Notes: a model not told the origin generated them from the letters alone. Positions 35,554 to 55,854 are shown, counted from the first letter of the stretch. The stretch is 64,000 nucleotides of DNA from Gemmatimonadota bacterium (GCA_016209885.1 JACQVF010000097.1:1-64000); one strand, 5' to 3'. Program-made: numbers and translations.

Positions 35554-38500
35554 ATGCGAGTCCAGCCGTTCGCGCGGTTCACATCCGGGACCGTCCTCGG
35601 TATGTCGTTTGCGCTCCTCTTGGCGCCGGTCACGCCCGTGCTGGCGCAGACGGGGAAGGTTACGGGGGTGGTGACGGACCAGAGCACGGGGCAGCCGCTC
35701 TCGGGCGTGCAGGTGTTCCTGGAGGGTACGGGGCGGGGCGTGCTCGCCCAGGAGAACGGGCGTTACTTCCTCATCAACATTCCGCCGGGGACGTATACGG
35801 CGGTGGCCGAGCTGGTCGGCTATGCCAGCGTGCGCAAGCAAGGCGTGCTCGTTTCCATCGACGTGACCCGCACCGTGGACTTCGAGCTGCCGCTGCAGGC
35901 GGTGGCGGTGCGCGAGGTGGTGGTCGAGGCGGAACGCGTGCCGTTGGTCGAGCTCTCTACGACCGGGAGCGGGACGCAGCTATCCTTGGAGGATATCTCC
36001 GCGCTGCCGGTGGACGACATCACGGGCGCGCTCGAGCTGCAGTCGGGGTTTCTGCACGTGCCGCAGAACACGGACGTCATCGCGTTCGCGGAGGAGCGCC
36101 GGGGGGTGACGCCGCTGCGGATCCGGGGTGGGCGTGGCGCCGAGACCCTCACCCTCGTGGACGGCGTTCCGGTGAACAACTTCGTGTTGGGCGGCCCGGC
36201 GGTGAACCTGACGCGCATGGCCGTCGGCCAGATCGACTTCGTGAAGGGTGGGTTCGAGCCGCAGTACGGGAACGCCCTCTCCGGCTTCATCAACATCGCG
36301 ACCCGGGAACCCACGGATGACCTGGAGGGCTCCATCGAGTACCGGAGCACGCGGCTGGGCGCGGCGCTGGGGAACGGCTACGACGAGGCGGGCAACTCGG
36401 ACATCTTCGAGGGCTTCATCTCCGGGCCCGTCCCTCTCTTGGGCGACCGCCTCCGCTTCCTCTTCGCGGGCCGACACGGCTATGGGCCGGATCGAGTCCT
36501 CGAGTTCGACGACGAGGTGTACCGGCCGACACAGGTCGGCAGCCAGCGCAACCCGCCTCACGCCTTGGACGTGATCCCGGGCTGGCGCGCCGTGGGATTC
36601 GATGCGCAGCGGGACGCGTTCTCGAAGCTGGTCTACTACGTCACGCCGGCGGCGAAGCTGTCCGCGTCATGGCTTACGTACCAGAGGCAGTCGAAGACAT
36701 TCGACTTCCGCTGGATGTTCGCGGGCGTCGATCCGCTCGCCGATCAGCTGACGGAGGCGGATTCGGCGTTCTATGGCACCGCGGAAAGCAGGAACCGGCT
36801 GACCCAGTTCCTGCAGCAGAACTCGTACTTCCAGAAGCGGAACCTGTATGTGCTGCGCTGGGACCACACTCTGGGGCGCACCGCCTACCAGCTCACGGCG
36901 GGCCGCTTCGACCAGTTCCGTGAGACGTGCAACGTGGCCCAGGGCGTGTGCCTGGGGAACGAGTTCGAGGATCCTAACTTCGACGGTGCCGGCTACGTGC
37001 GCGATGGCTCCGATTTCACGCGCACGCCCACCACGGGCACCGATCGCTTCTGGGGTGGTGAGGACATCACCACGTCGGTGGCGCGCGCCGACCTGCAGAG
37101 CCAGCTCACGGACCATCACAACTTCAGGCTGGGCGTCTTCTACCAGAACCACGAGGTGACGTACGACGAATGGGAGTGCGGTTGCGTCAACCAGGCGAAC
37201 AAGATCCAGAACTTCTGGAAGGCGGAGCCCTGGGACTTTGCCGCCTTCATCCAGGACCAGATCGAATACGACTTCATCACGATCAACCTGGGCTTTCGCT
37301 TCGACCACGGCGAGGCGAACGGCACGTTCCTGGCGAACCCGCTGGATCCGACGAACGGGACGACCGCGCTCGAGGTCTGCGCGAACCCGTCGGCGTTCGG
37401 GCAGTCGGGCACGCTGGAGTGCGCGGATCTCGAGGACCGGGCTGTCGCCACGGAGCTCGCGGCGAGGGACGACTTCGCGGAGGCGGAGGCGCGCTCCCAG
37501 TTCTCGCCGCGCATTGGCGTGAACATCCCGGTGACGGAGTCGGCGAGCCTGTTCTTCAACTTCGGGCGCTTCAGTCAGAACCCGCTCCTCAAGAACCTTT
37601 TCCAGTGGACGAAGGTCGGGACGGCGGAGGAGGGCACGGCGAAGGCGCTCACGCTGGAGGAGTTCGAGGGCCGGCAGCCGTTCCTGGGCAACCCGAAACT
37701 CAAGATCGAGCAGACCACCTCGTACGAGGTGGGGTACGTCCAGGAGATCGGGAACGTCTATGCGCTTTCGGTCGTGGCGTTCACGAAGGACCAGTTCGGG
37801 CTCACCGGGGTGCGGACCGTGGGCCTGCCGCCGTTCACGACCTTCGATCCCGGGGCCACGTACGGGACGAACAATCCGCGCTACCTGATCCTGGTGAACG
37901 GCGACTTCTCCACGACGCGCGGCTTCGAGATCGGGCTCAGACGCCGGCTCACGGACTTCTGGGGCTTCGATCTGAACTACGCGTACACGCGAGCGACGAC
38001 GAACGCCGCGGACCCCGAGCGTGAGCGCGAGCGCGTGGACTTCGAGAACGATCCCCAGCTCCTCAAGGAGATCCGCTCGGAGATCGACCAGCCGCACGTC
38101 TTCAACGGCACGATCCGCTTCGCGGCGCGGGAGGAGGCGCCGCGGTTGGGCGCGTTCGGCGAGGCGCTCCGGCACACGCGGGCGAGCCTGACGCTTCAGG
38201 CCGCGAGCGGCCTGCCCTACACGCCGATCCTGGATTTCTTCGGCGGTGAGGAGGCCGACCGTCTCGAAAGGAACAGCGGCCGCCAGCCCAGCACGCTCAT
38301 CGTGAACCTTCGGGTGGAGAAGGATGTCTTCTGGTCCAATCTGCGGTACGGCGTTTTCGTCGACGTCCGTAACCTGCTGGACAACAAGTACTGCCTGCAG
38401 GTCTTCGAGACCACCGGCGACTGCCGGGGCGGCACGGAGGACCAGTCGCGCCGCCGGGTTTCGAACGGCTTCTCCGACCAGGCGCCCAGCACGGTCTGGG

Positions 38501-38562
38501 ACCGCCCGAACTTCTTCGGAGAGCGGCGGTCCATTCAGGCCGGCGTGCGCGTCAACTTCTGA
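35554..38562 (+). CDS. TonB-dependent receptor, cassette A
   Basis: Outer-membrane active-transport channel. The ATG at 35554 follows AAGGAGGCGACC and gives 1,002 residues with a signal peptide ending PVLAQ. A carboxypeptidase-regulatory-like domain follows (residues 35-120: GVVTDQSTGQPLSGVQVFLE), then a TonB-box-like EVVVEAERVP, the plug (GGRGAETLTLVDGVPVNNFV, GGFEPQYGNALSGFINIATR) and a 22-strand-type barrel ending in RVNF. It is similar to SusC/RagA-type receptors, but no SusD is present. First gene of cassette A; 79 bases precede the giant exported protein. The substrate is unknown. Confidence 0.93.
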   Translation: MRVQPFARFTSGTVLGMSFALLLAPVTPVLAQTGKVTGVVTDQSTGQPLSGVQVFLEGTGRGVLAQENGRYFLINIPPGTYTAVAELVGYASVRKQGVLVSIDVTRTVDFELPLQAVAVREVVVEAERVPLVELSTTGSGTQLSLEDISALPVDDITGALELQSGFLHVPQNTDVIAFAEERRGVTPLRIRGGRGAETLTLVDGVPVNNFVLGGPAVNLTRMAVGQIDFVKGGFEPQYGNALSGFINIATREPTDDLEGSIEYRSTRLGAALGNGYDEAGNSDIFEGFISGPVPLLGDRLRFLFAGRHGYGPDRVLEFDDEVYRPTQVGSQRNPPHALDVIPGWRAVGFDAQRDAFSKLVYYVTPAAKLSASWLTYQRQSKTFDFRWMFAGVDPLADQLTEADSAFYGTAESRNRLTQFLQQNSYFQKRNLYVLRWDHTLGRTAYQLTAGRFDQFRETCNVAQGVCLGNEFEDPNFDGAGYVRDGSDFTRTPTTGTDRFWGGEDITTSVARADLQSQLTDHHNFRLGVFYQNHEVTYDEWECGCVNQANKIQNFWKAEPWDFAAFIQDQIEYDFITINLGFRFDHGEANGTFLANPLDPTNGTTALEVCANPSAFGQSGTLECADLEDRAVATELAARDDFAEAEARSQFSPRIGVNIPVTESASLFFNFGRFSQNPLLKNLFQWTKVGTAEEGTAKALTLEEFEGRQPFLGNPKLKIEQTTSYEVGYVQEIGNVYALSVVAFTKDQFGLTGVRTVGLPPFTTFDPGATYGTNNPRYLILVNGDFSTTRGFEIGLRRRLTDFWGFDLNYAYTRATTNAADPERERERVDFENDPQLLKEIRSEIDQPHVFNGTIRFAAREEAPRLGAFGEALRHTRASLTLQAASGLPYTPILDFFGGEEADRLERNSGRQPSTLIVNLRVEKDVFWSNLRYGVFVDVRNLLDNKYCLQVFETTGDCRGGTEDQSRRRVSNGFSDQAPSTVWDRPNFFGERRSIQAGVRVNF

Positions 38563-38641
38563 GCAGCTTGACCCTTGACCTCGCGTCCGGGCCCGGAGCT
38601 TCAGCGGTCCGGCGCCTGGACCCTCAACCCCAGGGGACCGT

Positions 38642-41600
38642 ATGATCGAGCGTTTCCTGTCCGAGCATAACTGCGCCCCGTGCTCGGCTGCCGGACGGCT
38701 CTCCCGGCTCGCCGCCTCCCTCGTGCTCCTCTGCAGCCTCGTGCCGCCGGCGCTCGCGCAGGACTGGCCGAGCATCCCGGAGAACGACGCCCGCTTCGCG
38801 GCGTCGCCCTTCACGCTCCACGCCCGGGGCGACCTTGGCCGGGTGGGGTTCCGGCCCTCCGGCGCCTTGAGCGAGTGCGCGAGCAACGTGGCAGGCATGA
38901 ACGCGCCCCGTTTTGTGGGCTGCCGGGAGTCACGCGTCTTCAACACGTCCGAGGGCACCCGCTTCCTCAACTTCGAGCAGCCGTTCATCCTTGCGGCGCC
39001 AGCCACAGATGTGCCATCGGGGGTGGATCGCAACCAGCTCAACGGCAAAGGCTACAACTTCCAGACGAACGCGATTCTGCCCTCGCGGCGCGAGGAGCTT
39101 CTCGCGTCTGACCGCTCGGGCCGCGACCTGCTGGCGCTGGGCGTGACGGCGACGACCGACGGGAGCTGCCGCGACTTCAGCGGGCTCATCAACGGAGACG
39201 TGTTCGAGGGCACGCAACTCCTCCCCCACACGAGCTGCCAGCCCACGTGGCCGCGGGCGGGGAACTGGGAGGGTCGCAAGCGGATCACGCTCGAAGGCTT
39301 CGTCGCCGCGCAGGGGGTCGTAAACGCAACCGGCAAGGGCGATCCCTTCGCATTCTGGCGGGTGCCAGACGAGCTCACCACGGGGCGGCCGCTGGGCGAC
39401 CAGGCGACGTTCGGCGAGTTCGTCGACTACTCCGTGGACCTCATTGCCCGCTACCCGACCGTCGTCCCGGGTGGCGGTGGGCAGGAGCCGCTCCTCCGCG
39501 GCTGGCCCATGGGGATCACCGTGCAGTTCGATGCGTTCTACTTCAATCTGCCGGGGATCAACAACGCCTACTTCTTCCAGTACCTGATCATCAACGACTC
39601 CGAGAAGGTCTGGGGGAAGCCGGTGGACTACGACTCGCTGTACGTGGGCACGCTCCGCCTCCAGGGCAACTTCGGCCAGCAGCAGGCGAACCACATTGAC
39701 ATCCCCCGCGGCGGGCTCTACGTGCGGCCGTGCACCCGCCGCATCGCGACGGCCAAGCCATCGCCGTTCACCGGCAGCCTGGCATCGTGCCAGAACAACG
39801 ACGGGTTCATCGGCGGCGCCCAGGGGTGGATGATCCTCAAGAGCCCCATCGGCGACCTCAGAAACAAGCTGCTGTCCGACGCCACGAGCCCGTTCTTCAA
39901 CCCGACGCACCCCGAGGCGGGCGACACGATCACGTTCAATCACTCGCACGGGTGCAACTTCATCGTCTGCACGGCCATCACCATGGACTTCTCCGAGCGC
40001 TCGGCGTTCGGGCTCGTCTCCTCCACGCTGGACAACCTGCTGGACGGACGTGACCCTGCGGCCCTCGACGAGGCGGGCTACTTCAACTCCGTGCACCCGA
40101 GCGAGGTCTGGCCCACGCGGGGCGACTTCAACAAGTACGTTCCTGGCGTGCACGACAGCAAGCCGAAGTGGGACTACAACGAGGACGGCAAGCCGGATAC
40201 TCTTTACGTGGACACCTGCGGCTCGAAGGGCTGCGTCGCGCTCTGGCAGGACACCGTGCCCGGCGGCTACATCAACCGCTTCGGCCAGGTGGCGCCGCTG
40301 TTCATGGGGCCCTTCAAGCTCGCGGCCGGCGACACGACCTCGCTCATCATCGCGTTCGTAGCCGACCGTGACAGCGCATCCTTCGAGTCCACGGTCCAGA
40401 ACGCCTACAACCTCTACATGTCGTTCTTCCTGGTGCCCGAACCGGCGCCCGTCCCGGACATCTCAACGATCGGGATCGGGGTCACGGGCGGACAGGGGGA
40501 CAGCGCGGAGGTGCGGGTCCACCTCACGGACGAGGCCCGCAACTTCGTGGATCCCTTCCTGCTCAAGCTCGCCAGCGAAATCAGCGCCGCGTCGCCCGGC
40601 AGCGACCTGGGCAAGCTCAGGTCGCTCAACCCCTGGCTCGTGGACAGCTTGCGCGCACGGGCGAGGAAGAACGTGAAGGCGATCTATGCGTTCAAGTCGT
40701 GCGATGGCGCCCAGACCTTCACGGACGACGGGAACTGCCTGCCGGATCCCGTCCCGGTGGCCGATCAGACGTCGAAGTGGAACGGCATCGGCTGGCTCCC
40801 CTTCGCGCAGCTCGACCCCGAAACGAGCGTCTTCAGGGATCAGACCGTGATCTCCGGGCTCAGCTATCTCTACTCGCTGGTCACGGAGACCGTGGGAGCG
40901 AAATGGCGCCTGCTTGTGGACAACGGCCCGGGCACGGTGCCCACGGATGCGGCCGGCAAGCCGATCTGCGTTCCGTCGCGCTGCCGGGCGCATGAGATCG
41001 AGTTCGCGCCCTCGATCCTGTCGCCGCTGAACAAGACGCCGGACGCCAGAGGGGTGGTGGCGGTCTACGTGCCGGTGCGCCGGCAGGCGGGCTCCGTGGC
41101 GGCGGCGTCACGGGTTGAATCGGCGCTGGGCGAGGCGCTGGTCCCGGTGAGGGTCTCCCTGACCCTCGGTGCCCGGGACGGCGCCTACCGGGCGATCTTC
41201 GCGGACACTCTCGTGGTAACCACCACGGTTGTCACGACGGACAAAGGCGGCGGCCGGCTGGACACGGTGAGCGTGAGCGCTTCGGTCCGGACGAGCGGTG
41301 CGAGCCCGGCGACCTTCACGGCGAACCGGCTCGTCACGCTGCGGGGCGAGACGCTCGTGTCCACGGAGACGACGCCGGACCCGTCCGACCCCAAGCGCGC
41401 CACCACGAGGACGGTGCACCGCGTCGTGCGCGTGACCGCGGGGGCCGTGCCCCTGCTCCTTGTCGAAACCACCGCGGGCGCGAACCGCCCGCTCTTGGCC
41501 ACGGGCGTGCTCGAGACGAACAAGACGACGCCGGGCGCGTTCCTGGAGCGGCCCGACTTCCCCGGCTTCTTGATCGACGTGGACGCCGGCTCGGGCACGC

Positions 41601-42592
41601 GCTTCGCGCGGCAGTACTTCCAGCGCCCGCGCGGCGACTCGCTGCCCTCGAACGTCACGGCGGGCCAGGCGATCGAGTGGCAGACCGCGCAGTCGCGGGC
41701 TCTGGCGGGCGTCTACGGTCACTACCTCATCGAGTGGGCGGACCGGCCGTACGGGCCGGGTGAGGAGTTCCGCGTGGGGGCGGCGCTCCAGAACCAGTTC
41801 ACGACGTCCCTGAACGGGCGAGCTGCGGCGACGACGTCTGTCACCAGCGCCGAGATCGCGACGAAGATCGCAACCGCCTTGGGGATCAGGGCGCCGACGC
41901 TCAAAGCCTTCGCCCTGCCGTTCAAGGTCCGGAACCTCACGGACAACCGGGAGGTGCAGGTGGCCGTGGTCGAGCACTTCGACAAGGTGCTCCTGGGGCA
42001 GGGGAGGGATACGGCCACGGTCACGGGGCCCGACGGGAAGTGGACGCCGGGCGACCGTATCGTCCTCGTGGAGAGCATCGGCGGGACGGCCACGCCGACG
42101 TGGGATGTGATCCTCGGCTGCACGAGCACGGTGCGTCGCGTCTGCGACGCCACGAACCAGTCTGCCTATGCGGCGGTGGTGGAAGCGGGCGTTCGGCACA
42201 ACCTGGTCTACTACCGCCCGCTCAGCGCGAGGGTCGAGTTCACGGTGACGGTCACGCCGTCGGGGAATGATCCGGCCCGTACCACCGCGGATCTCGCAAA
42301 CATTCGCGTCGTCCCGAACCCGTACGTGTTCTTCTCGCGATACGAGCGCTCGGGCGCTGCGCGGGTGATCAAGTTCGCGGGCGTCCCCGAGGAGGGGAAG
42401 GTCCGCATCTACACGGTGACGGGCCAGTTCGTGCAGGAAATCACGTGGGCAGCCGCGGACCTCAACGCCGCCGGTGACTTGGAGTGGGATCTCACCACCC
42501 GGGAGAACACCGAGATCGCGTTCGGGCTCTACATCTGGGTGCTGGACAGCCCCGCGGGCCAGGCGCGCGGCAAGTTCGTGGTCATCCGCTGA
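38642..42592 (+). CDS. Giant exported protein with C-terminal PNPY/KFVVIR domain, cassette A
   Basis: A 1,316-residue protein with a signal peptide cut at PPALA/QD. No catalytic domain is recognised. Landmarks shared with the cassette B partner are YDSLYVG, KSPIGDLRNKL (400-410), GDTITF, a Ca2+-loop-like DYNEDGKPD (511-519), DTCGSKGC, FKLAAGDTTS, KSCDGAQTFTDD, NKTTPGAF and DFPGF. The last 95 residues start VVPNPYVFFSRY, contain KVRIYTVTGQFVQEITW and end GKFVVIR. That shape resembles Por-secretion/FlgD-like C-terminal domains, so surface or extracellular export is inferred. The ATG follows AGGGGACCGT. Paired with a PorV-like gene 20 bases downstream. Confidence 0.85.
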   Translation: MIERFLSEHNCAPCSAAGRLSRLAASLVLLCSLVPPALAQDWPSIPENDARFAASPFTLHARGDLGRVGFRPSGALSECASNVAGMNAPRFVGCRESRVFNTSEGTRFLNFEQPFILAAPATDVPSGVDRNQLNGKGYNFQTNAILPSRREELLASDRSGRDLLALGVTATTDGSCRDFSGLINGDVFEGTQLLPHTSCQPTWPRAGNWEGRKRITLEGFVAAQGVVNATGKGDPFAFWRVPDELTTGRPLGDQATFGEFVDYSVDLIARYPTVVPGGGGQEPLLRGWPMGITVQFDAFYFNLPGINNAYFFQYLIINDSEKVWGKPVDYDSLYVGTLRLQGNFGQQQANHIDIPRGGLYVRPCTRRIATAKPSPFTGSLASCQNNDGFIGGAQGWMILKSPIGDLRNKLLSDATSPFFNPTHPEAGDTITFNHSHGCNFIVCTAITMDFSERSAFGLVSSTLDNLLDGRDPAALDEAGYFNSVHPSEVWPTRGDFNKYVPGVHDSKPKWDYNEDGKPDTLYVDTCGSKGCVALWQDTVPGGYINRFGQVAPLFMGPFKLAAGDTTSLIIAFVADRDSASFESTVQNAYNLYMSFFLVPEPAPVPDISTIGIGVTGGQGDSAEVRVHLTDEARNFVDPFLLKLASEISAASPGSDLGKLRSLNPWLVDSLRARARKNVKAIYAFKSCDGAQTFTDDGNCLPDPVPVADQTSKWNGIGWLPFAQLDPETSVFRDQTVISGLSYLYSLVTETVGAKWRLLVDNGPGTVPTDAAGKPICVPSRCRAHEIEFAPSILSPLNKTPDARGVVAVYVPVRRQAGSVAAASRVESALGEALVPVRVSLTLGARDGAYRAIFADTLVVTTTVVTTDKGGGRLDTVSVSASVRTSGASPATFTANRLVTLRGETLVSTETTPDPSDPKRATTRTVHRVVRVTAGAVPLLLVETTAGANRPLLATGVLETNKTTPGAFLERPDFPGFLIDVDAGSGTRFARQYFQRPRGDSLPSNVTAGQAIEWQTAQSRALAGVYGHYLIEWADRPYGPGEEFRVGAALQNQFTTSLNGRAAATTSVTSAEIATKIATALGIRAPTLKAFALPFKVRNLTDNREVQVAVVEHFDKVLLGQGRDTATVTGPDGKWTPGDRIVLVESIGGTATPTWDVILGCTSTVRRVCDATNQSAYAAVVEAGVRHNLVYYRPLSARVEFTVTVTPSGNDPARTTADLANIRVVPNPYVFFSRYERSGAARVIKFAGVPEEGKVRIYTVTGQFVQEITWAAADLNAAGDLEWDLTTRENTEIAFGLYIWVLDSPAGQARGKFVVIR

Positions 42593-42612: not shown

Positions 42613-43734
42613 ATGCTTCGCTCTCTCCTCATCGCGCTCGCGCTCGTCGTGCCGGTCTCGGTGGCCGGGCCGCCGGCGTTCGCCCAGCAGGGCACGACGC
42701 TCAGGCCCACGGACGAGACGGAGGCCACCCGGGTGGCGACCCGCGGTGCCGCGTTCCTGAATCTTCAGGTCGGGGCACGGGCCCAGGCGCTGGGTGGCGC
42801 GTACACGGCCATCGCGTCAGGGGTTCCCGCGCTCTACTGGAACACCGCGGCAACGGCGTTCGACGAGCGCACACTGCTGGGCGCCAGCCTGTCCAACCTG
42901 TATGAGGACCTGGACATCCAGCACCTCTTCGCGGGGATCATGCTCCCCATCGGGATCAACCGCTTCGCGGTGAGCGTCAATCAGCTCTCCAGCGGCTCCA
43001 TGCTCCGCACGGACGAAGAGTTCCCGGAAGGGAACAACCCACTCTTCGGCGCCGAGTTCGAGTACACGGCCACCGCCGTCGGCGTGCACCTCTCACGCCT
43101 GATCACGGATCGCCTGGCCTTCGGCGTCGCCGGGAAATGGATCACGGAGGGGATTCCCGGGGCAAAGGCGAGCTTCATCGCCGCCGACTTCAGCGTGAAG
43201 TTCTACACCGGGCTCCTGGGCACCAACCTCGCCGCCGCGCTCACGAACGTGGGAAGCGACGGACGCATCGAAGGCGCGCTCGTGGAGCGGCAGGTCGACC
43301 AGCGTACGAGCAGCGCCAACGTGTTCGACGTGCGCCGGCTCATCACCACCGAGTTCAGTACGGCCAGGGTCGAGCTCCCCACGGGCTTCCGCTTCGGGAT
43401 CAGCACTGAGCTCATCGGCGACGCCACGGCCGTTCTGGCCCCCTCGCCGCACCACAACCTGCTCCTGCTGATGGATGTCTCGGACCGCACGGACGCGCCC
43501 ATGTCGCCTACGTTCGGGCTGGAGTACGCGTTCCGTGACATCCTCTATCTGCGTGGCGGGAAGCGGTTCGCGAACGAGGAGCAGATCAACCGCGAGTTCT
43601 CGCACCTGCTCTCCTTCGGGGCGGGCGTCGCGCTCCCGGTGTCCGGCGCGCGCCGCATCCTGTTCGACTACGCGTACACCACGGTGGGCGACCTCGATAA
43701 CGTGCAGACCTTCAGCCTCGAACTCGCGTTCTGA
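42613..43734 (+). CDS. PorV/PorQ-family outer-membrane protein, cassette A
   Basis: A 373-residue beta-barrel protein with a signal peptide cut at AFA/QQ. The family start RVATRGAAFLNLQVGARAQA then LGGAYTAIASGVPALYWNTA is clear, and the protein ends in the barrel-closing SLELAF. In Bacteroidota, PorV shuttles type IX cargo to the surface; members of this wider family often lack a proven role. The ATG at 42613 has AAAGGAGACGACTC upstream. It lies directly behind the giant exported protein, supporting a cargo-handling role. Confidence 0.87.
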   Translation: MLRSLLIALALVVPVSVAGPPAFAQQGTTLRPTDETEATRVATRGAAFLNLQVGARAQALGGAYTAIASGVPALYWNTAATAFDERTLLGASLSNLYEDLDIQHLFAGIMLPIGINRFAVSVNQLSSGSMLRTDEEFPEGNNPLFGAEFEYTATAVGVHLSRLITDRLAFGVAGKWITEGIPGAKASFIAADFSVKFYTGLLGTNLAAALTNVGSDGRIEGALVERQVDQRTSSANVFDVRRLITTEFSTARVELPTGFRFGISTELIGDATAVLAPSPHHNLLLLMDVSDRTDAPMSPTFGLEYAFRDILYLRGGKRFANEEQINREFSHLLSFGAGVALPVSGARRILFDYAYTTVGDLDNVQTFSLELAF

Positions 43735-43755: not shown

Positions 43756-44439
43756 ATGAACCCGAAGAGCACGTTCTGCGTCGCCGGGATCGCCGCGGCG
43801 CTCGCGGCGGCGCCGCTCGCGGTCGCGTATGCTCAGGTCCGGACGGGCACGTTCCAGGTGACCCCCTACGCCGCGTTCCTGAGCCCGGACAACTCCTCCG
43901 CCATCAGGGACGCGGGCATGGTGGGAATCGAGGCGGCGTACTACTTCGCGCCTAGCTTCGCGGTGGGCGTCACCGGGAATTTCGGCCGCTCGAAGAGCGA
44001 CGGCACCTACTTCGGGGCCGCCCGCTTCCCGCTGGGCGATTCCCTCGTCACCCTGCACATCGATCAGAAGCTCTCCATCGCGACCTACGGAGCGATCGCG
44101 AAGGTGGGTCTCTCCGTCGGCCGACTCTCCCCGTTCGTGGCCGGGGGCGTGGGCGGATACTTCCTCTTCCTCGACCCTCAGTCGAACGACAAGCCGGTCA
44201 CGGTCAGCGATCTCGGCTTCGAGGTGGGGGGCGGCTTCCACCTGGCGCTCACCGAGCGCGCCGGCATCCGCGCCGATTTGCGGGATCTCGTCTTCACCGG
44301 CTACGACCGCGACGCTTTGAACCTGGTGAATCCGCGCTTCCGCACGGACACGTTCCTCGAGGGTGCGCCGCCGCCCGAGAAGGCCACCATCCACAACGTC
44401 CGGGTCTCCTTCGGCTTCAGCTATCTGTCCGGGCGGTGA
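43756..44439 (+). CDS. Small outer-membrane beta-barrel protein, cassette A
   Basis: A 227-residue protein with a signal peptide cut at AYA/QV and alternating beta-strand pattern throughout, like OmpA/OmpW-type eight-stranded barrels. It ends RVSFGFSYLSGR. Homologous to the slot-4 protein of cassette B: compare LRDLVFTGYDRDALNLVNP with IRDLVYTDWDREMLNPVAP. Starts 21 bases after the PorV-like gene with AGGGAGACGC upstream. Specific role unknown. Confidence 0.8.
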   Translation: MNPKSTFCVAGIAAALAAAPLAVAYAQVRTGTFQVTPYAAFLSPDNSSAIRDAGMVGIEAAYYFAPSFAVGVTGNFGRSKSDGTYFGAARFPLGDSLVTLHIDQKLSIATYGAIAKVGLSVGRLSPFVAGGVGGYFLFLDPQSNDKPVTVSDLGFEVGGGFHLALTERAGIRADLRDLVFTGYDRDALNLVNPRFRTDTFLEGAPPPEKATIHNVRVSFGFSYLSGR

Positions 44440-44812
44440 CGAGAAGCGTCCGCAGGCCAGGAGCTGGTGAATGCGATGACTGACTTGACAGGTCTGACAC
44501 CGGGGACTAATCATAACCTTGCCAGCTTGTAGAAATCCGACGTTGCCGTGGCGGGTCCGTTTGGTGCGTTGGCAGGACTCGGAGCCCGAATCCGGGCGTG
44601 TGGCGGCGGAAGGTGGCGGAGGATCCGGGGCGTCCGGCACTTCGGGTAGCATCGGAAGGAGGGCGTGTTTGGATCCAACGCTCGTTGGCATCTTCCCAGA
44701 TCCAATCAGGCATACACTTCAGTGGCGTCTCCCGGGACCGGGTCGCTCGGGTGCTTGTGTGCCCATCTCCGGCTCGGGGTCCATCGGCCATGTCCATGCA
44801 AGGAGGGATCGC
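44440..44812. other. Gap and probable long leader between cassettes A and B
   Basis: 373 bases without a credible gene. A promoter candidate lies at 44485-44513, leaving a leader of nearly 300 bases before the receptor GTG at 44813. No terminator hairpin with a T tract is visible after cassette A. Confidence 0.5.
44485..44513 (+). promoter_or_regulatory. Candidate promoter of cassette B
   Basis: A perfect TTGACA (44485-44490), 17-base spacer, then TAATCA (44508-44513). The -35 box is perfect and the -10 box weak. Confidence 0.45.
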
Positions 44813-47800: not shown

Positions 47801-47998
47801 AACCTCCTGGACGCCAAGAACTGCATCCAGGTGTTCACGAGCACGGGCCGCTGCGAGGCGGGCCAGGCCGATCAGGCGCGGCGCGCTACCGGCAACCCGC
47901 TCACGGATCCGAGCTCGATTTCAAGCTCGTACCTGGACCGGCCCCAGTACTTCGCCCAGCGGCGGACGATCGTGGCCGGCCTTAGGGTGAGCTTCTGA
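44813..47998 (+). CDS. TonB-dependent receptor, cassette B
   Basis: A 1,061-residue homologue of the cassette A receptor. The GTG at 44813 has AAGGAGG six bases upstream and yields a signal peptide ending SASAQ. The carboxypeptidase-like domain (GVVTDQQSGQPLAGVQVFLE), EVVVEAERVP and plug (GGRGAETLTLIDGIPVQNWV) are very close to cassette A, while the barrel loops diverge and are longer by about 60 residues overall. It ends GLRVSF. No SusD-like gene. The strong conservation of the periplasmic part suggests a shared energy partner and different external ligands. Confidence 0.93.
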   Translation: MKRVAWGLMLVALGLLASRSASAQAVGSVTGVVTDQQSGQPLAGVQVFLEGTGRGVLTQENGRYFLINVPVGTYTLVAELIGYATVQHQNVVVATDIARVINVQMVTQAVAVAEVVVEAERVPLVELRASGSSNTLTSEDIEALPVTSIQGALAFQQGFLEVPDNTDVLSYGESRRNVLSPIRIRGGRGAETLTLIDGIPVQNWVLGGPTLDPNLPSVAQLDYVKGGFEPQYGNALSGIINIALREGGDELEGSLEYQTSRFGGWLGNTQDELLGLDLYQGFLSGPIPGTGGKGRFMVSGRHQNAKDRVLEFDDDVYDPNNPRAGFNTPFLTDIFPGWRGVGYDARYDVVGKLTYYFTPAIKLNVSGIRYERERQPFDFLFLYTYDDPLSAPNLRTAADSAYYGGNLSQYRLAPTDFPNVIQGTSRLERTLLVANWDHTLQRSSYRISVGRFDQQRLTCNWFQGVCLGGGDEGFQDPNFTDDRFHGPAPVGQRGLHPTMGTDFLYGGEDITTWVGRGDWQWQASDHHNFQAGVYWQQHDLGYDESECTCGNIRIVVNQKYSIDPWDAAFYVQDRIEYDFLTARIGFRFDYGKAPGVFLRDPIDPTAGSTAADVCKDPNGMSSHLDKSWVELGADPAWARLGEGCGGNADITRRAALVAFEDDFVGTRTRTQFSPRIGISFPVTETSSVFFNYGVYSQNPVIKNLYNFTGVGTPHEGCPLGFALGFAGENGLKKCGLSEPVTMAQYRGPYTHETRPEGVDKILGNTNLQIERTSSYEVGLLTQISDIYALGITLFAKDQTGLTGFRDGGVLPDGTGVFDIGQTYGTARPRYTALVNSDYQTVRGIELQLRRGILDFWGFDINYSFSQARTNGAALDRALEDDISREQALFTNAEFPSEIDIPHVFNAVLRFVAREETPDVPFGEWLKNTTATLTARAAGGVPYTPTTTLTGGGSTINTTARLDANSKRGPSTFEMDFQLTKDWSVTNMNYGFFLRAENLLDAKNCIQVFTSTGRCEAGQADQARRATGNPLTDPSSISSSYLDRPQYFAQRRTIVAGLRVSF

Positions 47999-48145: not shown

Positions 48146-51100
48146 ATGAGACTCCATCACCAGAGGCACGGCGTGCTCCCGCTCCTCGTGGGAAGCCTTC
48201 TCCTGCTCCCTGGCGGCGGCGGCGAGCTCCGAGCGCAGGTCCCGCAGCTCTCGGACCTGAGCCGGAAATGGGTGCTCGGGCCGGACGGCGAGCCCGTGGA
48301 GCCGGAACTCGGGCGGCGCCCCTCGCATTTCCAGCTCTTCTCTGACAAGGACTTCGCACGGGCCTTCATGACCCCCGGCGCGAGCATCAGTGGCTCGGTG
48401 CTGGAGCTCTGCTGGGAGAACTGGCCCGACGACGAGATCTGCCCGTACGGCATCTTCCGGCGCGTGAGGAGCGACAACGTGCTTACCCTGGCGTACAGGC
48501 AGGGCGACTACTTCTATGGGGTGCCGCGCACCGAGTGGCTCAAGCACCGGCAGAAGGTGCAAAGCCTGGCCAATGCGAAGGGGCGCGGCTACAACGTCTT
48601 CACGAACACGAGCTCCCCACTCTTCATTCTCCCGAAGGACGGGACGGTGGGCATCCTGCACTCGGGCGTGACCGCTCAGGCAGACGGTACGTGCAAGGAC
48701 ACGCACCGCTGGCTCACCGGGGACCCCCTGCTCCCGCTCTCGGACTGCCCGGTTACCTGGGGCTCCGCCGGCTGGCGCGGCGCCCAGCTTATCGCGAAAG
48801 AGGACTATGAGGCGGCGTTCAGGGCCAACGGGAACAGCTTCACCTTCGACTACTGGCGGATGCCCGGTGCCTACGCCGCCGGTTCCGTGGACGCAGGACG
48901 CCTGCTCGGGAGCTGGCAGGGCTACGGCGTCTCGAGCGACTGGAGCATCGACAAGGCCGCGCTCTACGGGAACGTCGTGCCCCGCGGCTCCGGCGAGCCG
49001 CAGGTGCCCGGCTGGCCTCTGGGGCTCGAGATTCGGAGCGACGCGTTCGTGTACGCGCTTCCCACCCTGGCCGGGGTCCTGTTCGTCCAGGCGCTCATCA
49101 TCAACCGGAGCGAGGACGTGTATGGCGTCCCCCTGGATTACGACTCACTCTACTTCGGCTTCTCGCCGTCGTGGTGGTTTCACTCGAGCCTCCAGACGGC
49201 CGCACAGTACTGGGAGCCGGCCACCGGCGCGTTCAAGGCGGCGACCACGGAGGAGAAGGTGGGCTGCCCGAACGCGCGGGCGGACCGGGTCACGGACATC
49301 CTCTGCCCCGGGCTCCGTGGGATCATCGGCGGCAGCCGGCACGGTGCGGCCATGATGATGGTGCTCAAGAGCCCCATCGGCGACCTGCGCAACAAGCTGT
49401 TTACCCGGGCGGGCTCGCCGTTCTACAACCCGAGCCACCCGAGCGCCGGCGACACGATCACGTTCCAGCACGGCCACATGTGCGGTTTCCGGGCGTGCGT
49501 GCAGACCACGTATAACCGCTGGGCGGACCCGGACGGCGAGCAGCGCATGTTCGGGATGATCGCGTCGGTAGCGGCGGACGTGGCGGGCGCCCGCAACCTG
49601 AACGACCCCACCTCCTTCAGCGATCGCGACTACTGGCACACCCTCCGCTCGGAGCGCTTCCCGGAGCGCTCGGGGTTCAACCGCTACGTGCCCGGCACCT
49701 GGGACTGGAACCACGACGGCAAGCCCGACACGCTCTACCTGGACTCGTGCGGGAGCAAGGGCTGCGTGGCCGCGTGGAGCGACACCCTGCCCGGCGGCTG
49801 GCTCAACGGATACGGGAACGTGGGCGTCACGAACACGGTGGGCCCGATCCGGCTCGCCGCGGGCGACACCACCGGCTACATCTGGGCGTTCGCCGTGGCC
49901 CCCGAGGGTGCCGCGCAGCTCGATCAGTTCGTGAAGAACATCACGGACATGTACTTCAACTTCTTCAAGGGGCCGTCGGCGGCGGCGCTGACAATCGTCC
50001 GCGGTGTGGACGTCTCGAGCACGCGACTCGGGCGCCGGGTCTCCCTCTTCCTCGACGACTCCCAGGTCCGCAAGTGGGCGGACCAGTTCCTGCTGGACCA
50101 GGCCGCGGCGCTCGAGGGATCCCGGCCCGCAGCGCTGAACCCGACCCTGCTTGCTGACATTCGGGCTCGGGCCCGGGACAACGTGGAGGCGGTGCACCTC
50201 CTCAAGTCGTGCGATGGCGGCGACACCTTCACGGACGACAACGACTGCGAAGGCGATGAGGCGAAGGACGGGAAGTTCAAGGACCTGGGCTGGTTCCCGT
50301 ACAAGTCGTGGGCGGCGAACCAGGTGCCCTCCGCCTTCACGGACGAGACGGTCACCCCCGGCCGCACCTACCTCTACGTCCTGGTGAGCGAGACGCGCGG
50401 CGCATCCTTCCCTGTGGTGGAGGATGGCCCGGGCGGCACCTTCAAGGCCGGCAGCCTCGACCTCGCGCCCAAGATCTTCAATCCCATCAGCCGCGCCGCG
50501 GACGCGCCGCAGGTCGCCCGCGTCTACGTGACCGCGTCCTTGCAGGCGGGCGCGCAGCGGGCCTCGGCGACACTGGCCGCGCAGTCCGGGCCGGCCAAGG
50601 TCGCGCCCGACGGCTTCGAGATCCTTACCATCACCCCGGCCACAGACGCGCCGACCGCCGGCGCGTACAGGGTCCTGTTCGCCGACGACGTGACCGTCGT
50701 GCGCACGGAGACCTACGAGACCGCGGCGCTCGCTAAGCTGAGCAGCGTGACGACGCGTATCGATGCCAAGGACAAGGCGACGGGCCAGACGATCCTCAGC
50801 ACGCAGGTCCAGGGCGCGGACGGGATCACGCTGAGCGGAGAGTCGTCATCCCAGCGGACCGTGGAGGGCAGGGTCGTCAGCATCGTCTCGACGTTCAAGC
50901 AGCTCACGGCCATGCTGCTCAGGGGGACCAACGTCCCGCTCCTGGCCAGCGCGGTGCTGGACGGGGAGAAGACCACGCCCGGCGCCTTCATCGGCCGCGC
51001 GGACTTCCCGGGCATCCTGCTGAACGTGAAGCACTCGCCCGGCACCCTCGCGGGCTCGTTCTACATGCAGCGCGAGGAGAAGCTCGACCCCCTCACCTCA

Positions 51101-52168
51101 CCCGCGGTGGGCTGGCGCTCCGCGTCGGTGAGGCCGGGTCCCGCCGCCCGGTACGGTGAGCTGGTCTTCGACTGGGAGGCTGACGCCTTCGGGCCGGCCG
51201 CGCCGTTCGCGCTGAACTTCGCGAACCCGCAGGCGACCGCGGACGCCCTGGCGCAATCCGTGCGCGCCCGTCCGGCCGCGCAGCGCACGCTGGCGGCGAG
51301 CCAGCCGGTGCTCGACCTGGCGAAGGCGGCGCTCCGCGCCCGGGGCAGCAGGGCCGACTCGCTGCGGGCGAATGCGCTCGTTGCCGCCGATATCGTGCAG
51401 GCCGCACTGCCGTTCACCATCCGCAACGCCACGTTCAACGCGAACGTGGACGCCATCATGCTGAAGCGGAGCGCCGACGTGCGGCGCCTGGGGAGCGGGC
51501 CGGATACGCTGACGGTCGCGGTTCCGTCCGACATCTGGCTGCCCGGTGACGATCTCATCCTGGTGGAGAACACGGGCGCCGGGAACGCGGTGACGTGGGC
51601 GACGGCCGCGCTTGGTTGCGATCCCGGGAGCGTCTTCCGGCCGCTCACCTGCAACCCGGTGTCGGGCCGCGGCTCGACCTTCTACGTGGCCACGAACGCG
51701 GACCATCGGCTGCACGTCCAGTATTACGTGGGGTTCAGCACCAGGAGCCAGTTCACCTTTGACGTGCGGGCCGCCAAGGTGGCCGCCGAGCTCACGGCCG
51801 AGGAGATCCGCACCGGGCTCGAGGACGTGAAGGCCGTCCCCAACCCGTTCATGAGCTTCTCGCAGCTGGTCTACCCCGGCACCGAACGGGATGAGGCCAT
51901 CGTCTTCACGCACCTGCCGCCGCGGGGGCGCCTCCGCATCTACACGGTGGCCGGCCACTTCGTGCAGGAGCTGACCTGGGAGGCGGGCGACCTGGCGCAG
52001 ACGCAGTTCGGGGCGACCACGTCGGGGCAGGGCGACCTGTTCTTCAACCTGCGGACCCGGGAAGGGAACCGGATGGCCTCCGGCCTCTACCTCTTCGTGG
52101 TCACGGCCCTGGGTGCGGACGGGAGCGAGATCGGAAGCAAGATCGGCAAGTTCGTCATCATTCGTTGA
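48146..52168 (+). CDS. Giant exported protein with C-terminal PNPF/KFVIIR domain, cassette B
   Basis: A 1,340-residue partner of the cassette A giant protein, with a signal peptide cut near ELRA/QV. Shared landmarks: YDSLYFG, KSPIGDLRNKL (408-418), SPFYNPSHPSAGDTITF, a DxNxDGxxD loop DWNHDGKPD (520-528), DSCGSKGC, RLAAGDTTG, KSCDGGDTFTDD, KTTPGAF and DFPGI. The C-terminal 111 residues start VPNPFMSF, contain RLRIYTVAGHFVQELTW and end GKFVIIR. The first 130 residues differ from cassette A. No enzyme motif is recognised. It is followed after 15 bases by a PorV-like gene. Confidence 0.85.
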   Translation: MRLHHQRHGVLPLLVGSLLLLPGGGGELRAQVPQLSDLSRKWVLGPDGEPVEPELGRRPSHFQLFSDKDFARAFMTPGASISGSVLELCWENWPDDEICPYGIFRRVRSDNVLTLAYRQGDYFYGVPRTEWLKHRQKVQSLANAKGRGYNVFTNTSSPLFILPKDGTVGILHSGVTAQADGTCKDTHRWLTGDPLLPLSDCPVTWGSAGWRGAQLIAKEDYEAAFRANGNSFTFDYWRMPGAYAAGSVDAGRLLGSWQGYGVSSDWSIDKAALYGNVVPRGSGEPQVPGWPLGLEIRSDAFVYALPTLAGVLFVQALIINRSEDVYGVPLDYDSLYFGFSPSWWFHSSLQTAAQYWEPATGAFKAATTEEKVGCPNARADRVTDILCPGLRGIIGGSRHGAAMMMVLKSPIGDLRNKLFTRAGSPFYNPSHPSAGDTITFQHGHMCGFRACVQTTYNRWADPDGEQRMFGMIASVAADVAGARNLNDPTSFSDRDYWHTLRSERFPERSGFNRYVPGTWDWNHDGKPDTLYLDSCGSKGCVAAWSDTLPGGWLNGYGNVGVTNTVGPIRLAAGDTTGYIWAFAVAPEGAAQLDQFVKNITDMYFNFFKGPSAAALTIVRGVDVSSTRLGRRVSLFLDDSQVRKWADQFLLDQAAALEGSRPAALNPTLLADIRARARDNVEAVHLLKSCDGGDTFTDDNDCEGDEAKDGKFKDLGWFPYKSWAANQVPSAFTDETVTPGRTYLYVLVSETRGASFPVVEDGPGGTFKAGSLDLAPKIFNPISRAADAPQVARVYVTASLQAGAQRASATLAAQSGPAKVAPDGFEILTITPATDAPTAGAYRVLFADDVTVVRTETYETAALAKLSSVTTRIDAKDKATGQTILSTQVQGADGITLSGESSSQRTVEGRVVSIVSTFKQLTAMLLRGTNVPLLASAVLDGEKTTPGAFIGRADFPGILLNVKHSPGTLAGSFYMQREEKLDPLTSPAVGWRSASVRPGPAARYGELVFDWEADAFGPAAPFALNFANPQATADALAQSVRARPAAQRTLAASQPVLDLAKAALRARGSRADSLRANALVAADIVQAALPFTIRNATFNANVDAIMLKRSADVRRLGSGPDTLTVAVPSDIWLPGDDLILVENTGAGNAVTWATAALGCDPGSVFRPLTCNPVSGRGSTFYVATNADHRLHVQYYVGFSTRSQFTFDVRAAKVAAELTAEEIRTGLEDVKAVPNPFMSFSQLVYPGTERDEAIVFTHLPPRGRLRIYTVAGHFVQELTWEAGDLAQTQFGATTSGQGDLFFNLRTREGNRMASGLYLFVVTALGADGSEIGSKIGKFVIIR

Positions 52169-52183: not shown

Positions 52184-53272
52184 ATGAGCGCGATCCTTCG
52201 ATTCGGCCTTGCGCTGACTTTCGTGACGGCGGCTGTCTCGCCCGCGGCGGCCCAGACGGGCGAGCAGCTCCAGGGCGACCCCGAAACCCCGAACGCACGC
52301 ACCGCGACCCGCGGCGCTCAGTTCCTCGCCATCCCCGTTGGCGCGCGCGCCCTGGCCCTGGGCGGCGCCGTCACGGCCGACGTCTCGGGCGTGGCCGCCA
52401 TGTTCTGGAACCCGGCCGGCCTCGCCCACGGGGAGGGGGTCGGCTTCGGCTACAGCTACAGCGAGCTGTTCGAGGACACGGACATCACGCATCAGTACGC
52501 CGGCGTCTATGTGCCGCTGCCCTGGGCCACCCTCGGGGTCAGCGTAGTGAGCCTCTCGAGCGGCGACATCACGCGCACCACGCTCGCGTTCCCCGATGGC
52601 GGCGACCCGCTCTTCGGGGGGACGTTCGAGTACTCGGCGACCGCCATTGGAGTGCACGCGGCGAAGCGCCTCACGGACCGCTTCGTGTTCGGCGGTGCCC
52701 TCAAGTCGGTGCACGAGGGGATCGACAACGCCTCCTCCTCGTGGGTCGCTCTCGACGTCGGACTTCAGTTCGAGACGGGGCTGTTTGGGACCACCATCGG
52801 CGCAAGCCTGGTGAACCTGAGCGGCGACGCGAAGTGGGAGGGGATCGACCGGCGGTTGTCGGACGAGCTGAACACGGAGCAGATCGTGGACGTGACGGTG
52901 AAGACCCGGGACGTGGCGCTCCCCATGGCCTTCCGGTTCAGCCTGGCGGTCGACCTGGTCGGCGCGCCCACCGCCATCCTCACGCCCTCGGGGATGCACT
53001 CCCTCCGCGTGATCGCCGATGCCACCGACGCCATCGACACGAACCCGAATGTGGCGCTCGGGGCGGAGTACGCACTCCGGGACATCCTCTTCCTGCGGGG
53101 CGGCTGGCGCTCCCTCAACGAGGACCGGGGGCCGTGGGAGACGAGCGACCAGTTGTCCGGCGGCTTCGGGCTTAAGCTGCCGGTGGGCCCGGCCGCGCGC
53201 CTCGACTACGCATTCGCGCAGTTCGGCGAGCTGGGCAACCGGCAGGTGTTCAGCATCGAAGTGGAGTTCTGA
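52184..53272 (+). CDS. PorV/PorQ-family outer-membrane protein, cassette B
   Basis: A 362-residue barrel protein with a signal peptide cut at AAA/QT. N-terminal signature ARTATRGAQFLAIPVGARAL then ALGGAVTADVSGVAAMFWNP. Barrel segments FEYSATAIGVHAAKRLTDRF correspond to FEYTATAVGVHLSRLITDRL in cassette A. Ends FSIEVEF. GGAGACGGG precedes the ATG. Same slot and same inferred role as the cassette A PorV-like protein. Confidence 0.87.
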   Translation: MSAILRFGLALTFVTAAVSPAAAQTGEQLQGDPETPNARTATRGAQFLAIPVGARALALGGAVTADVSGVAAMFWNPAGLAHGEGVGFGYSYSELFEDTDITHQYAGVYVPLPWATLGVSVVSLSSGDITRTTLAFPDGGDPLFGGTFEYSATAIGVHAAKRLTDRFVFGGALKSVHEGIDNASSSWVALDVGLQFETGLFGTTIGASLVNLSGDAKWEGIDRRLSDELNTEQIVDVTVKTRDVALPMAFRFSLAVDLVGAPTAILTPSGMHSLRVIADATDAIDTNPNVALGAEYALRDILFLRGGWRSLNEDRGPWETSDQLSGGFGLKLPVGPAARLDYAFAQFGELGNRQVFSIEVEF

Positions 53273-53282
53273 GCCGCGGTTG

Positions 53283-53374: not shown

Positions 53375-53411
53375 CACATTCGCTCCCGAATACGAGGAAC
53401 GGGAGGAGATC

Positions 53412-54077
53412 ATGAACCGGTTGAGCCTGTGTAGTGTTATCCTCGTCCTCGGCGTCACGGCGGCCGCCATGGCCCAGACGCCCGAAGCCACCTTCGTGGT
53501 GACGCCCATGGGCGGGTACGGGCTCATCGACGAGGCGAGCGCCCTCGATCCCATGGCAGCCGGCGGCATCGATGCCATCTACCGGCACTCGAGTGGGATC
53601 GTCTTCGGCATCGGTGCGAACGCGGCCCGCGCGAAGACGCAGAAGGACTTCTTCCCGCGGGCGCGCCTGGTGTACGGTCAGCGCACGGAGCTGTACGACG
53701 TGCAGCAGCCCGTGTTCGTATACGCCTACCGGGCGCAGGCGGGCTATCACGTGAGCGGCCGGCTCGCACCCTACGTGCTGGGCGGCGTCGGCGGCTACGC
53801 CGTCTACACGGATCCCGAACAGAGCCGGGGCGGGAAGTTCCGGCACGCGCTCCACTTCGCCTTCGGGGGCGGCATCGACCTCGCCCTCGAGGAGCGCACC
53901 GGCCTGCGGCTGGACATCCGCGACCTCGTCTACACGGACTGGGACCGCGAGATGCTGAACCCCGTCGCGCCGGAGTTCCGGGACGACTTCTTCCCCGAGT
54001 TCCAGCCCGCACCCCCGGAACCCAAGGACATGATCCACAACATCGTTATCAGCATCGGGTTCAACTTCGTTCCGTGA
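53412..54077 (+). CDS. Small outer-membrane beta-barrel protein, cassette B
   Basis: A 221-residue protein with a signal peptide cut at AMA/QT; the beta-strand pattern ends VISIGFNFVP. Homologous to the cassette A slot-4 protein (shared VTPMGGYGLID/VTPYAAFLSP region, LAPYVLGGVGGYAVYTDPEQ and IRDLVYTDWDREMLNPVAP). GGGAGGAGATC precedes the ATG. Role unknown; barrel by pattern. Confidence 0.8.
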   Translation: MNRLSLCSVILVLGVTAAAMAQTPEATFVVTPMGGYGLIDEASALDPMAAGGIDAIYRHSSGIVFGIGANAARAKTQKDFFPRARLVYGQRTELYDVQQPVFVYAYRAQAGYHVSGRLAPYVLGGVGGYAVYTDPEQSRGGKFRHALHFAFGGGIDLALEERTGLRLDIRDLVYTDWDREMLNPVAPEFRDDFFPEFQPAPPEPKDMIHNIVISIGFNFVP

Positions 54078-54114: not shown

Positions 54115-55854
54115 ATGAAGAAGCAGGTCAGGCTGGGATGGCCCGGGCGCCTGGCGCTCCTGGCGGCCTTCGGCCTCCTTCTCGGTGCCTGCGTCTCGGA
54201 AGACCTGAACGACCGGGTCCTCGGCCCGGGCGGCGCGGAGAACGTGTTCAACTTCACGCTGTCGTCGGGCGCTGGCTTCGGTCTGCCAGCCGGAAGGTAC
54301 ACCGTGCCGAAGAGCCCGACGGACGCGTGGGGGCGCGCGGGCCGCACCAAGATCTTCAACACGCAGAACGCGTTCGCGATTCTTTCCTACTCGCTCAACC
54401 TCTCCCTGCGAAACGCGAAGCAGGATCCACGGCTGCCGCGGCTCGCCGATGACGACGCCGCGGTGGGCGGCTACGGCTATCACCTGCAGCCGTGGGCGCT
54501 CGGCGCGAACGGGTGGTGGGACTTCTGGACGGAGTTCACGAAGCTGAAGCCGAACACCACGTACACCGTCATGTTCGTGCGCTACGGGCTCAAGGTGAAC
54601 GGGACGCTCGATGCCGCCGACGTGCTGCGAGGTCGCGCCGTGACGAGCCCGGATGAGCTGGTGGTGCTCGGCGGTACGCCCAGGGGCACGCCCAACTATG
54701 TGTGTGAGTTCTCGTTCGACGGGTACCCGGTCGTCCAGATTGACGCGAACCCGTTCGTCCTCGGCTACTTCACGACGGACGGCACGGGGACCGGGGTGGG
54801 CGACTGCGTCGTTTCGGCCCACGGCAAGAAATGGTGGAACAACGCGGCGAGCGCGTTTCCGCCGGGCGCCATCGACTCGCTGCCCATCGCGGCGAACGAC
54901 GTCAGGGCTTTCAGCCTGCCCACCTACAACTACATCGTCGTCGTCGAGGGCAAGGGCACCGATGCGAGCCCCGTTCCCACGGGACCCCATGCGCTTCGCT
55001 TCCAGGTGGGCCATGATCTGGACCTGAACGGCAATCCGCTCCCCAACGCGCTAGCGCCGTTCCCGACGCAGAAGCAGCTCCTCGTCGAGACGACCTTCGA
55101 GTTCACGGGCGCGTCCAAGCTGGCGTCCGGCAACCAGTACCGCTTCTGGGCTTACAACTCCGCTGATGCCTCGAAGTCCGTTCCGCTCGTCGGAAACTGG
55201 AGGCTGGTCAACGAGGACGGCGTAGCCATCGACTCCGCATCCAAAGTGAGCGGAATCCCCGGTCGCGGCGGGCCGCGTGACCCCAACCTGGTGACGGTTT
55301 CCAGCGATACCTGGGACGGCGACCTTTTCGACTACGATCGCATTCGAATCACCATCGATGCGGCGAACGCCACGAGACCGGGCAATGTGGTTGTGCTGGA
55401 TGCCCGGTTCGTCGATGCCGTCGGCAAGCTCGAGACGCTGCGGAGGAGCGGAGCCTTCACGTTCGGCGGCGGCTACGCGTACACGGGCGAGGGTCGCGGC
55501 CACTTCTACGGAGACGATTTCCGCCTGGCGCTCCGGGGGCTGTCGCGGCCGCCCGCGGGCTACTTCTACGAGGTCTGGCTGGTGAACGCGGCCACGGGGC
55601 AGGCGGCGTCCCTGGGCGAGCTCAAGGGGCCGTATCCCGAGTACCCCTCCCTCAAGGACGCGGACACGAACGCAAGCCTCGCGCCGGGAGGGCTCATCCC
55701 GGATGCCGCCATCGTGGTGAACCGCACGAACGTCGGGGTCGACTACAAGGCATTCACGCACGTCTACGTGACGCTCTCGCCGAAGCTGCGTGACGGGCTC
55801 CCCGTTCAGGTCGCGCTCCAGGGCGAGATCCCGGGCCAGGTGCTGGGAAAGTGA
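54115..55854 (+). CDS. Exported lipoprotein with RskA-like C-terminal region
   Basis: A 579-residue lipoprotein: the lipobox LLLGAC gives a lipid-bound Cys at about residue 25. The middle is beta-rich and unassigned. The last 110 residues (ALRGLSRPPAGYFYEVWLVN, ASLGELKGPYPEY, THVYVTLSPKLRDGLPVQ) resemble the C-terminal domain of anti-sigma-K factors, here without the membrane helix and zinc-finger N-terminus. It lies 37 bases after the small barrel gene with AAGGAGAGCGTT upstream and is followed by a terminator, so it closes cassette B. Cassette A has no equivalent. Confidence 0.75.
   Translation: MKKQVRLGWPGRLALLAAFGLLLGACVSEDLNDRVLGPGGAENVFNFTLSSGAGFGLPAGRYTVPKSPTDAWGRAGRTKIFNTQNAFAILSYSLNLSLRNAKQDPRLPRLADDDAAVGGYGYHLQPWALGANGWWDFWTEFTKLKPNTTYTVMFVRYGLKVNGTLDAADVLRGRAVTSPDELVVLGGTPRGTPNYVCEFSFDGYPVVQIDANPFVLGYFTTDGTGTGVGDCVVSAHGKKWWNNAASAFPPGAIDSLPIAANDVRAFSLPTYNYIVVVEGKGTDASPVPTGPHALRFQVGHDLDLNGNPLPNALAPFPTQKQLLVETTFEFTGASKLASGNQYRFWAYNSADASKSVPLVGNWRLVNEDGVAIDSASKVSGIPGRGGPRDPNLVTVSSDTWDGDLFDYDRIRITIDAANATRPGNVVVLDARFVDAVGKLETLRRSGAFTFGGGYAYTGEGRGHFYGDDFRLALRGLSRPPAGYFYEVWLVNAATGQAASLGELKGPYPEYPSLKDADTNASLAPGGLIPDAAIVVNRTNVGVDYKAFTHVYVTLSPKLRDGLPVQVALQGEIPGQVLGK

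Follow-up and report, generated by a model that had tools for sequence, protein, structure and literature searches.

In Bacteroidota, a single PorV collects all type A cargoes of the type IX secretion system (T9SS) from the SprA translocon, and the T9SS is usually described as a system of that phylum. Type A cargoes, as in Porphyromonas and Flavobacterium, carry a Sec signal and an Ig-like C-terminal domain (CTD) with a conserved Lys. An earlier survey found the T9SS confined to Bacteroidetes (PMC4793230); a later paper considers it possibly present in Gemmatimonadetes (PMC11285876). Type B cargoes use cognate SprF/PorP barrels, which are commonly encoded directly 3′ of the cargo and seem to anchor it (PMC12618676, PMC9143113). 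Two further systems, SusC/SusD of Bacteroidota and Oar of Myxococcus xanthus, involve TonB-dependent outer-membrane proteins, and an Oar-type transporter has been proposed to export PopC in M. xanthus. Here we analyse a 64,000-nucleotide stretch (the window; GCA_016209885.1, JACQVF010000097.1:1-64000) of a Gemmatimonadota draft genome (G000; 115 contigs, 94% complete, 5.2% contamination). Nine genes on its + strand (35554-55854) encode a TonB-dependent receptor, a giant exported protein, a PorV-like barrel and a small barrel, twice in this order (cassettes A and B), followed by one lipoprotein (Table 1). The cassette is a conserved unit in Gemmatimonadota, and its giant appears to be a T9SS cargo with a PorV-family shuttle of its own.

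The cassette cargo resembles type A cargoes in its Sec signal, its Ig-like CTD with a conserved Lys, the PorV-family barrel and the presence of SprA in the genome. It differs in having its own adjacent PorV rather than one shared PorV, in CTDs that (in the window) lie under the TIGR04183 cut-off, in a genome where no PorU was detected, in the added receptor, small barrel and lipoprotein, and in its phylum. The succession of cargo gene and cognate shuttle gene, with many pairs per genome, recalls the type B pairs SprB/SprF of F. johnsoniae and PG1035/PorP of P. gingivalis, and the anchoring thought to be performed by those shuttles is also what we propose for the cassette PorV. The cassette signal and shuttle are, however, type-A/PorV-like, and a TonB-dependent receptor is included. 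With SusC/SusD the cassette shares a TonB-dependent receptor with a CarboxypepD_reg domain, a large (here inferred) surface partner, and expandability (17 pairs in genome G001), but neither giant nor lipoprotein has a SusD domain, and the large partner would be a T9SS-type cargo, not a lipoprotein. Oar likewise has an N-terminal CarboxypepD_reg domain and plug; the cassette, unlike Oar, encodes a separate route for exporting the giant. No published description of a five-gene receptor–giant–PorV unit was found in the literature searched, coverage of which was partial.

A conserved unit in Gemmatimonadota

The original prediction had described a four-gene cassette at 35554-44439 and again at 44813-54077, with homologous members in each slot. 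Both copies do have the same order on the same strand, and pairwise BLASTP gives identities of 49% for the receptors (1057 columns), 34% for the giants (whole length), 45% for the PorV-like proteins and 40% for the small barrels. What the prediction missed was a fifth gene, a sorting domain at the end of the giant, and a third set elsewhere in the genome. Our analysis is sequence-based throughout; many of the genomes compared are drafts, and family models are weak outside Bacteroidota.

A pattern-based scan of one genome per species returned 14 loci, all from Gemmatimonadota. A giant profile matched 96 of 395 sampled Gemmatimonadota genomes, 42 of them strongly, that is, with a window-type body and not the C-terminus alone. 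The order receptor, giant, PorV holds at the 55 loci with sequence on both flanks of the giant, with one exception, L096:3384-8153 (genome G350), where a giant with CTD has neither receptor nor PorV alongside. Order and strand are the same at 24/24 window-type loci that have flanking sequence on either side of the giant; the small barrel comes next after PorV at all 22 whose contig continues, and a lipoprotein homologue (E<1e-3) lies directly 3′ of it in 18 of the 21 other cassettes with a continuing contig. The unit thus comprises five genes: the four predicted slots are real, and the lipoprotein at 54115-55854 is the fifth, of which cassette A has no copy of its own.

The families also occur together genome by genome. 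The small barrel is present in 44 genomes, 40 of which have a strong giant, and only six genomes have one of the two without the other (Fisher p about 1e-47, kinship ignored). Most strong small-barrel matches (38/48) share a contig with a giant and lie 1.1-1.3 kb 3′ of it, and several of the remainder are on short contigs or adjoin partial cassettes. A chance neighbourhood without a functional unit, in whose favour only the exceptional locus in G350 speaks, is rejected on the order kept at 55 loci, on this co-occurrence and on the CTD–PorV adjacency (44/44) described below, and its probability is close to nil.

The third set lies on contig C115 of the window genome (L017:3842-12066) and consists of receptor, giant and PorV, followed by a GWxTD-domain protein (L017:12121-13566). 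Relatives of this set were read at 31 loci, including the distant family f11, in which genome G001 holds 17 giant–PorV pairs and G003 holds six. The G001 pairs (L118-L127, L082-L083) have a receptor upstream at 12/12 loci read, and the same genome encodes a complete PorU as well as 30 sorting domains of the classical T9SS kind, so that two classes of cargo are found together in it. Giants of the C115 type are homologous to one another across most of their length. Their CTDs are related to those of the window type (hhalign 99.3%), and the bodies without CTD give three short collinear matches only; full-length homology between the two types is likely, judging from these alignments.

The sorting domain and its neighbouring barrel

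The last 110 or so residues of the giants follow the pattern VVPNPY...RIYTVSGQFVQE...GDL.W.LRTREG...ASGLY.FV...GKFVIIR. When 19 CTDs were scanned singly, the CTD portion of PorU model NF033707 was matched by all of them, the T9SS type A sorting domain TIGR04183 by 16 at E<=0.1 (best 1e-5) and PorZ by 15, these matches being mostly under the curated cut-offs; the C115 giant scores 22.2 bits against TIGR04183 (cut-off 23). The sole PDB sequence match of the domain is the PorU CTD (6za2, E=0.007), and a Foldseek search with the predicted giant ranked PorU first and PorZ fourth (prob 1.00). A Lys near the C-terminus (K105) is invariant in 19/19 CTDs; in type A CTDs that bind PorV, the corresponding Lys is described as likewise invariant, and as important for function (PMC10994853). 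The giant thus carries a divergent type-A-like T9SS C-terminal signal, newly recognized here. Type B CTD and PorP/SprF-family models were absent from the matches of the cassette proteins at E<=0.1.

Every strong match to a CTD profile has a PorV-family match directly 3′ in the same orientation (44/44 in 20 genomes, gap 136-244 bases). The profile contains no PorV information; it favours the cassette class because it was made from cassette giants, f11 members not included. In G001, the one genome from which a contrast with classical CTDs was drawn, PorV is next door at 17/17 CTDs of the giant class vs 0/30 classical ones (Fisher p=4e-13). Across 13 cassettes from the expansions in G001 and G003, PorV distances correlate with those of the CTD (r=0.42, p=1/2000) and of the giant body (r=0.50, p=10/2000); species history matters little here, since these are mostly paralogues within one genome. 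CTD and PorV therefore diverge as pairs. The role in giant export that the original prediction gave to the PorV-like protein gains support from the T9SS-like CTD and from this adjacency.

Alternatively, the CTD could be an ordinary FlgD-like Ig module on a periplasmic giant, the PorV-family proteins being plain fatty-acid-type porins. FlgD_ig (PF13860) does match 9/19 CTDs (best 3.7e-6), and to our knowledge the PorV/PorQ family is poorly characterized outside Bacteroidota, which counts in favour of this explanation. However, the models that most CTDs match are those of PorU, PorZ and TIGR04183, the domain occupies the C-terminus throughout and closes with GKF-hydrophobic-R/K, and a PorV gene adjoins it at 44/44 strong matches; a periplasmic giant is accordingly improbable.

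Secretion machinery and proposed mechanism

The window genome encodes the SprA/Sov translocon (TIGR04189, 1.1e-60). SprA was found in 280 of the 395 Gemmatimonadota genomes and in 42/42 of those with a strong giant (hypergeometric P=2e-7, kinship ignored). A search for the PorU sortase gave matches to the CTD region only in the 94% complete window genome, and the same search was positive in G001 (5.9e-176). GldK matches are below cut-off. Both window giants begin with a hydrophobic segment and an A-x-A/Q site, read from the translations as a Sec signal peptide; sites of this type, which had been noted previously, are visible in 8/8 exported proteins, with a lipobox (LLGAC) in the ninth, and the motif may be ordinary for the lineage.

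The cassette has the layout of a type B system with type-A-like parts; on this basis, our proposal is that export of the giant falls to its own PorV. Each cassette would produce a surface uptake complex assembled through type IX secretion. The giant would cross the inner membrane by Sec, its type-A-like CTD would be recognized at the SprA translocon, and the neighbouring PorV-family shuttle would pull it out. It is probably neither cleaved nor attached to lipopolysaccharide, because no PorU sortase is detectable in the window genome, and would remain bound to its own PorV at the surface, much as SprF/PorP is thought to keep type B cargoes there. In this position it could capture or condition a substrate for uptake by the upstream TonB-dependent receptor, with the small barrel and the lipoprotein as accessory subunits. 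Substrate capture is the most economical role, since the constant upstream receptor, its CarboxypepD_reg/SusC-like architecture and the 17-copy expansion all recall SusCD. That the receptor imports something which the giant prepares or captures, as the original prediction had suggested, is plausible.

Several results weigh against this mechanism. The CTD of giant A scores 15.1 bits against TIGR04183 (cut-off 23), and all CTDs in the window are below that threshold. The predicted structure of the giant has a mean predicted local distance difference test (pLDDT) score of 69.5, with a weakly resolved fold, and that of the lipoprotein (pLDDT 55.9) is too poor for structural searching. The motor protein GldM gave no match in ten genomes, although the GldM model may be blind in Gemmatimonadota, because the T9SS-rich G001 was negative too.

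The receptor could also be the exporter, an Oar-type TonB-dependent transporter carrying the giant or another protein out while PorV merely receives it. Its N-terminus shares the CarboxypepD_reg and plug architecture of the Oar subclass (PMC6434023), but this arrangement is common in importers such as SusC, and the T9SS-type signal, PorV and the SprA gene already provide an export route; we regard an exporting receptor as improbable as well.

A more serious rival, if still an unlikely one, makes the giant a structural or adhesive protein of the cell surface (coat, scaffold or cell contact), exported by the T9SS and anchored by PorV. The receptor would then import nothing specific to the giant, and its place in the operon would be explained by regulation, or by its being an unrelated barrel partner. 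In line with this, Pfam and NCBIfam scans found no enzyme domain in the giant, fibronectin-like modules are among its Foldseek matches, and operons of cargo and cognate shuttle in F. johnsoniae encode putative adhesins (PMC12618676). Against it, every complete locus except one has a receptor directly upstream, which holds for the 13 expansion loci of two genomes too, and receptor and giant distances are strongly correlated (r=0.93), a link that a pure adhesin would not need.

Export of the giant by a T9SS is thus well supported as a prediction, and its anchoring, complex formation and substrate uptake would follow from the mechanism proposed above. For the whole, a giant that is exported as T9SS cargo, that its private PorV probably keeps at the surface, and that acts with the receptor in uptake, we judge the chances to be even.

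History of the two copies

The phrase "twice in tandem", used in the original prediction, is apt for the layout and not for the origin of the copies. Copy A clusters with the only cassette of genus g5, which belongs to the same family (100/100 in the giant tree, 100/99 in the receptor tree), and copy B with cassettes from other families (100/99 and 85/98). The approximately unbiased (AU) test rejects a constraint of A and B as sisters with p=0.0006 for the giant and, marginally, with p=0.04 for the receptor; it does not do so for PorV (p=0.61) or the small barrel (p=0.39). A recent tandem duplication is thereby rejected by the giants and weakly by the receptors, and since the sister grouping fails for these two slots, the trees indicate that A and B are two old cassette lineages set side by side through old duplication or transfer. 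Pairwise distances in the four main slots correlate overall (r 0.81-0.93, 0/2000 permutations, 14-16 representatives), partly mirroring species history. Within the diverse A/B clade the correlation is significant for receptor–giant and giant–PorV, and not for the small barrel against receptor, giant or PorV. The original prediction had named rare co-occurrence elsewhere, or strong disagreement among the slot trees, as refuting the unit; both were checked, and the unit withstood them.

Features of the window and neighbouring genes

Gaps between genes measure 15-147 bases inside each copy, and 373 bases separate A from B, with no terminator-like site in that gap. Gene starts with good ribosome-binding sites agree with those given earlier (receptor A at 35554, receptor B at 44813 with GTG), and the first PorV-like gene starts at 42613.

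Table 1. Cassette genes and other features of the window.
Feature	Position	Strand	Remarks
Cassette A, slot 1: TonB-dependent receptor, N-terminal CarboxypepD_reg-like domain and plug	35554..38562	+	start with GGAGG; PF13715 5.5e-16, PF07715, PF00593 barrel 1.2e-20
Cassette A, slot 2: giant exported protein, T9SS type-A-like C-terminal domain	38642..42592	+	1316 aa
Giant A, C-terminal sorting-like domain (VVPNP...GKFVVIR)	42287..42592	+	profile match 2.3e-39; PorZ model 3.6e-6, PorU model 0.0025
Cassette A, slot 3: PorV/PorQ-family outer-membrane barrel (proposed dedicated shuttle)	42613..43734	+	start by Shine-Dalgarno sequence
Cassette A, slot 4: small outer-membrane beta-barrel	43756..44439	+	PF13505 2.7e-10
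Promoter-like sequence TTGACA-18-AATCAT, between the cassettes	44485..44514	+	weak; 1 found vs 0.1 expected
Cassette B, slot 1: TonB-dependent receptor	44813..47998	+	GTG start with AGGAGG; PF13715 4.8e-18, PF00593 2.1e-17, PF07715 2.8e-8
Cassette B, slot 2: giant exported protein	48146..52168	+	1340 aa; full-length relative of giant A
Giant B, C-terminal sorting-like domain	51812..52168	+	profile match 6.5e-42
Cassette B, slot 3: PorV/PorQ-family barrel	52184..53272	+	
Cassette B, slot 4: small outer-membrane beta-barrel	53412..54077	+	PF13505 7.2e-10
Slot 5: large lipoprotein (LLGAC lipobox), single for both cassettes	54115..55854	+	

Both PorV-like proteins pass the PorV/PorQ family model NF033709 (124 and 135 bits vs a cut-off of 90) and fail the PorV equivalog NF033710 (38 bits each vs 250), and both small barrels pass Pfam OMP_b-brl. 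The receptors are below the SusC model TIGR04056 (36 and 58 bits vs 368). Pfam and NCBIfam scans found no SusD match in giant or lipoprotein, and a SusD-like identity for either was rejected. The giant has no Pfam domain, and its profile gave zero sequence matches in the PDB at E<=1; Foldseek also pointed to glycoside phosphorylases, too weakly to be of use (best E about 6e-4, TM score 0.1). Near-invariant cysteines and Asp/Asn-rich loops such as DYNxDGxxDT recur across the aligned giants, suggesting disulfides and loops that bind calcium, as in an extracellular protein. The slot-5 lipoprotein of one lineage (L079:12022-13440, L080, L081) has an apparent extra C-terminal carboxypeptidase-regulatory-like segment.

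Beside the third set, an 849-aa frame (L017:13653-16202) has a class A beta-lactamase-like half (100 bits vs a cut-off of 200) and a weak match to the murein tripeptide amidase MpaA. Contig C21 of the same genome encodes a 1113-aa S8 subtilase-like protein (L018:6257-10569) with a sorting-domain-like C-terminus and a PorV/PorQ-family gene directly 3′. It was rejected as a PorU candidate, being S8-like rather than PorU. A receptor/lipoprotein pair resembling SusC/SusD lies on the opposite strand of that contig.

Significance

In a little-studied phylum that is not Bacteroidota, CTDs of a divergent class appear to be served by private PorV shuttles, encoded together with a TonB-dependent receptor in a unit of fixed composition. 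The cognate and paralogous CTD–shuttle pairs form a natural set suited to questions of recognition specificity and of anchoring by the shuttle. The cassettes could represent a distinct class of uptake machine, in which receptors are combined with giant T9SS-cargo capture proteins that private PorV proteins export and hold, up to 17-fold in one genome and independently of PorU in some lineages; we rate this somewhat short of an even chance. The unit suggests a feeding mode for the mostly uncultured Gemmatimonadota and, if the reading is true, would be a SusCD analogue made of secretion-system parts, which could be a new way to build surface machines that capture nutrients.

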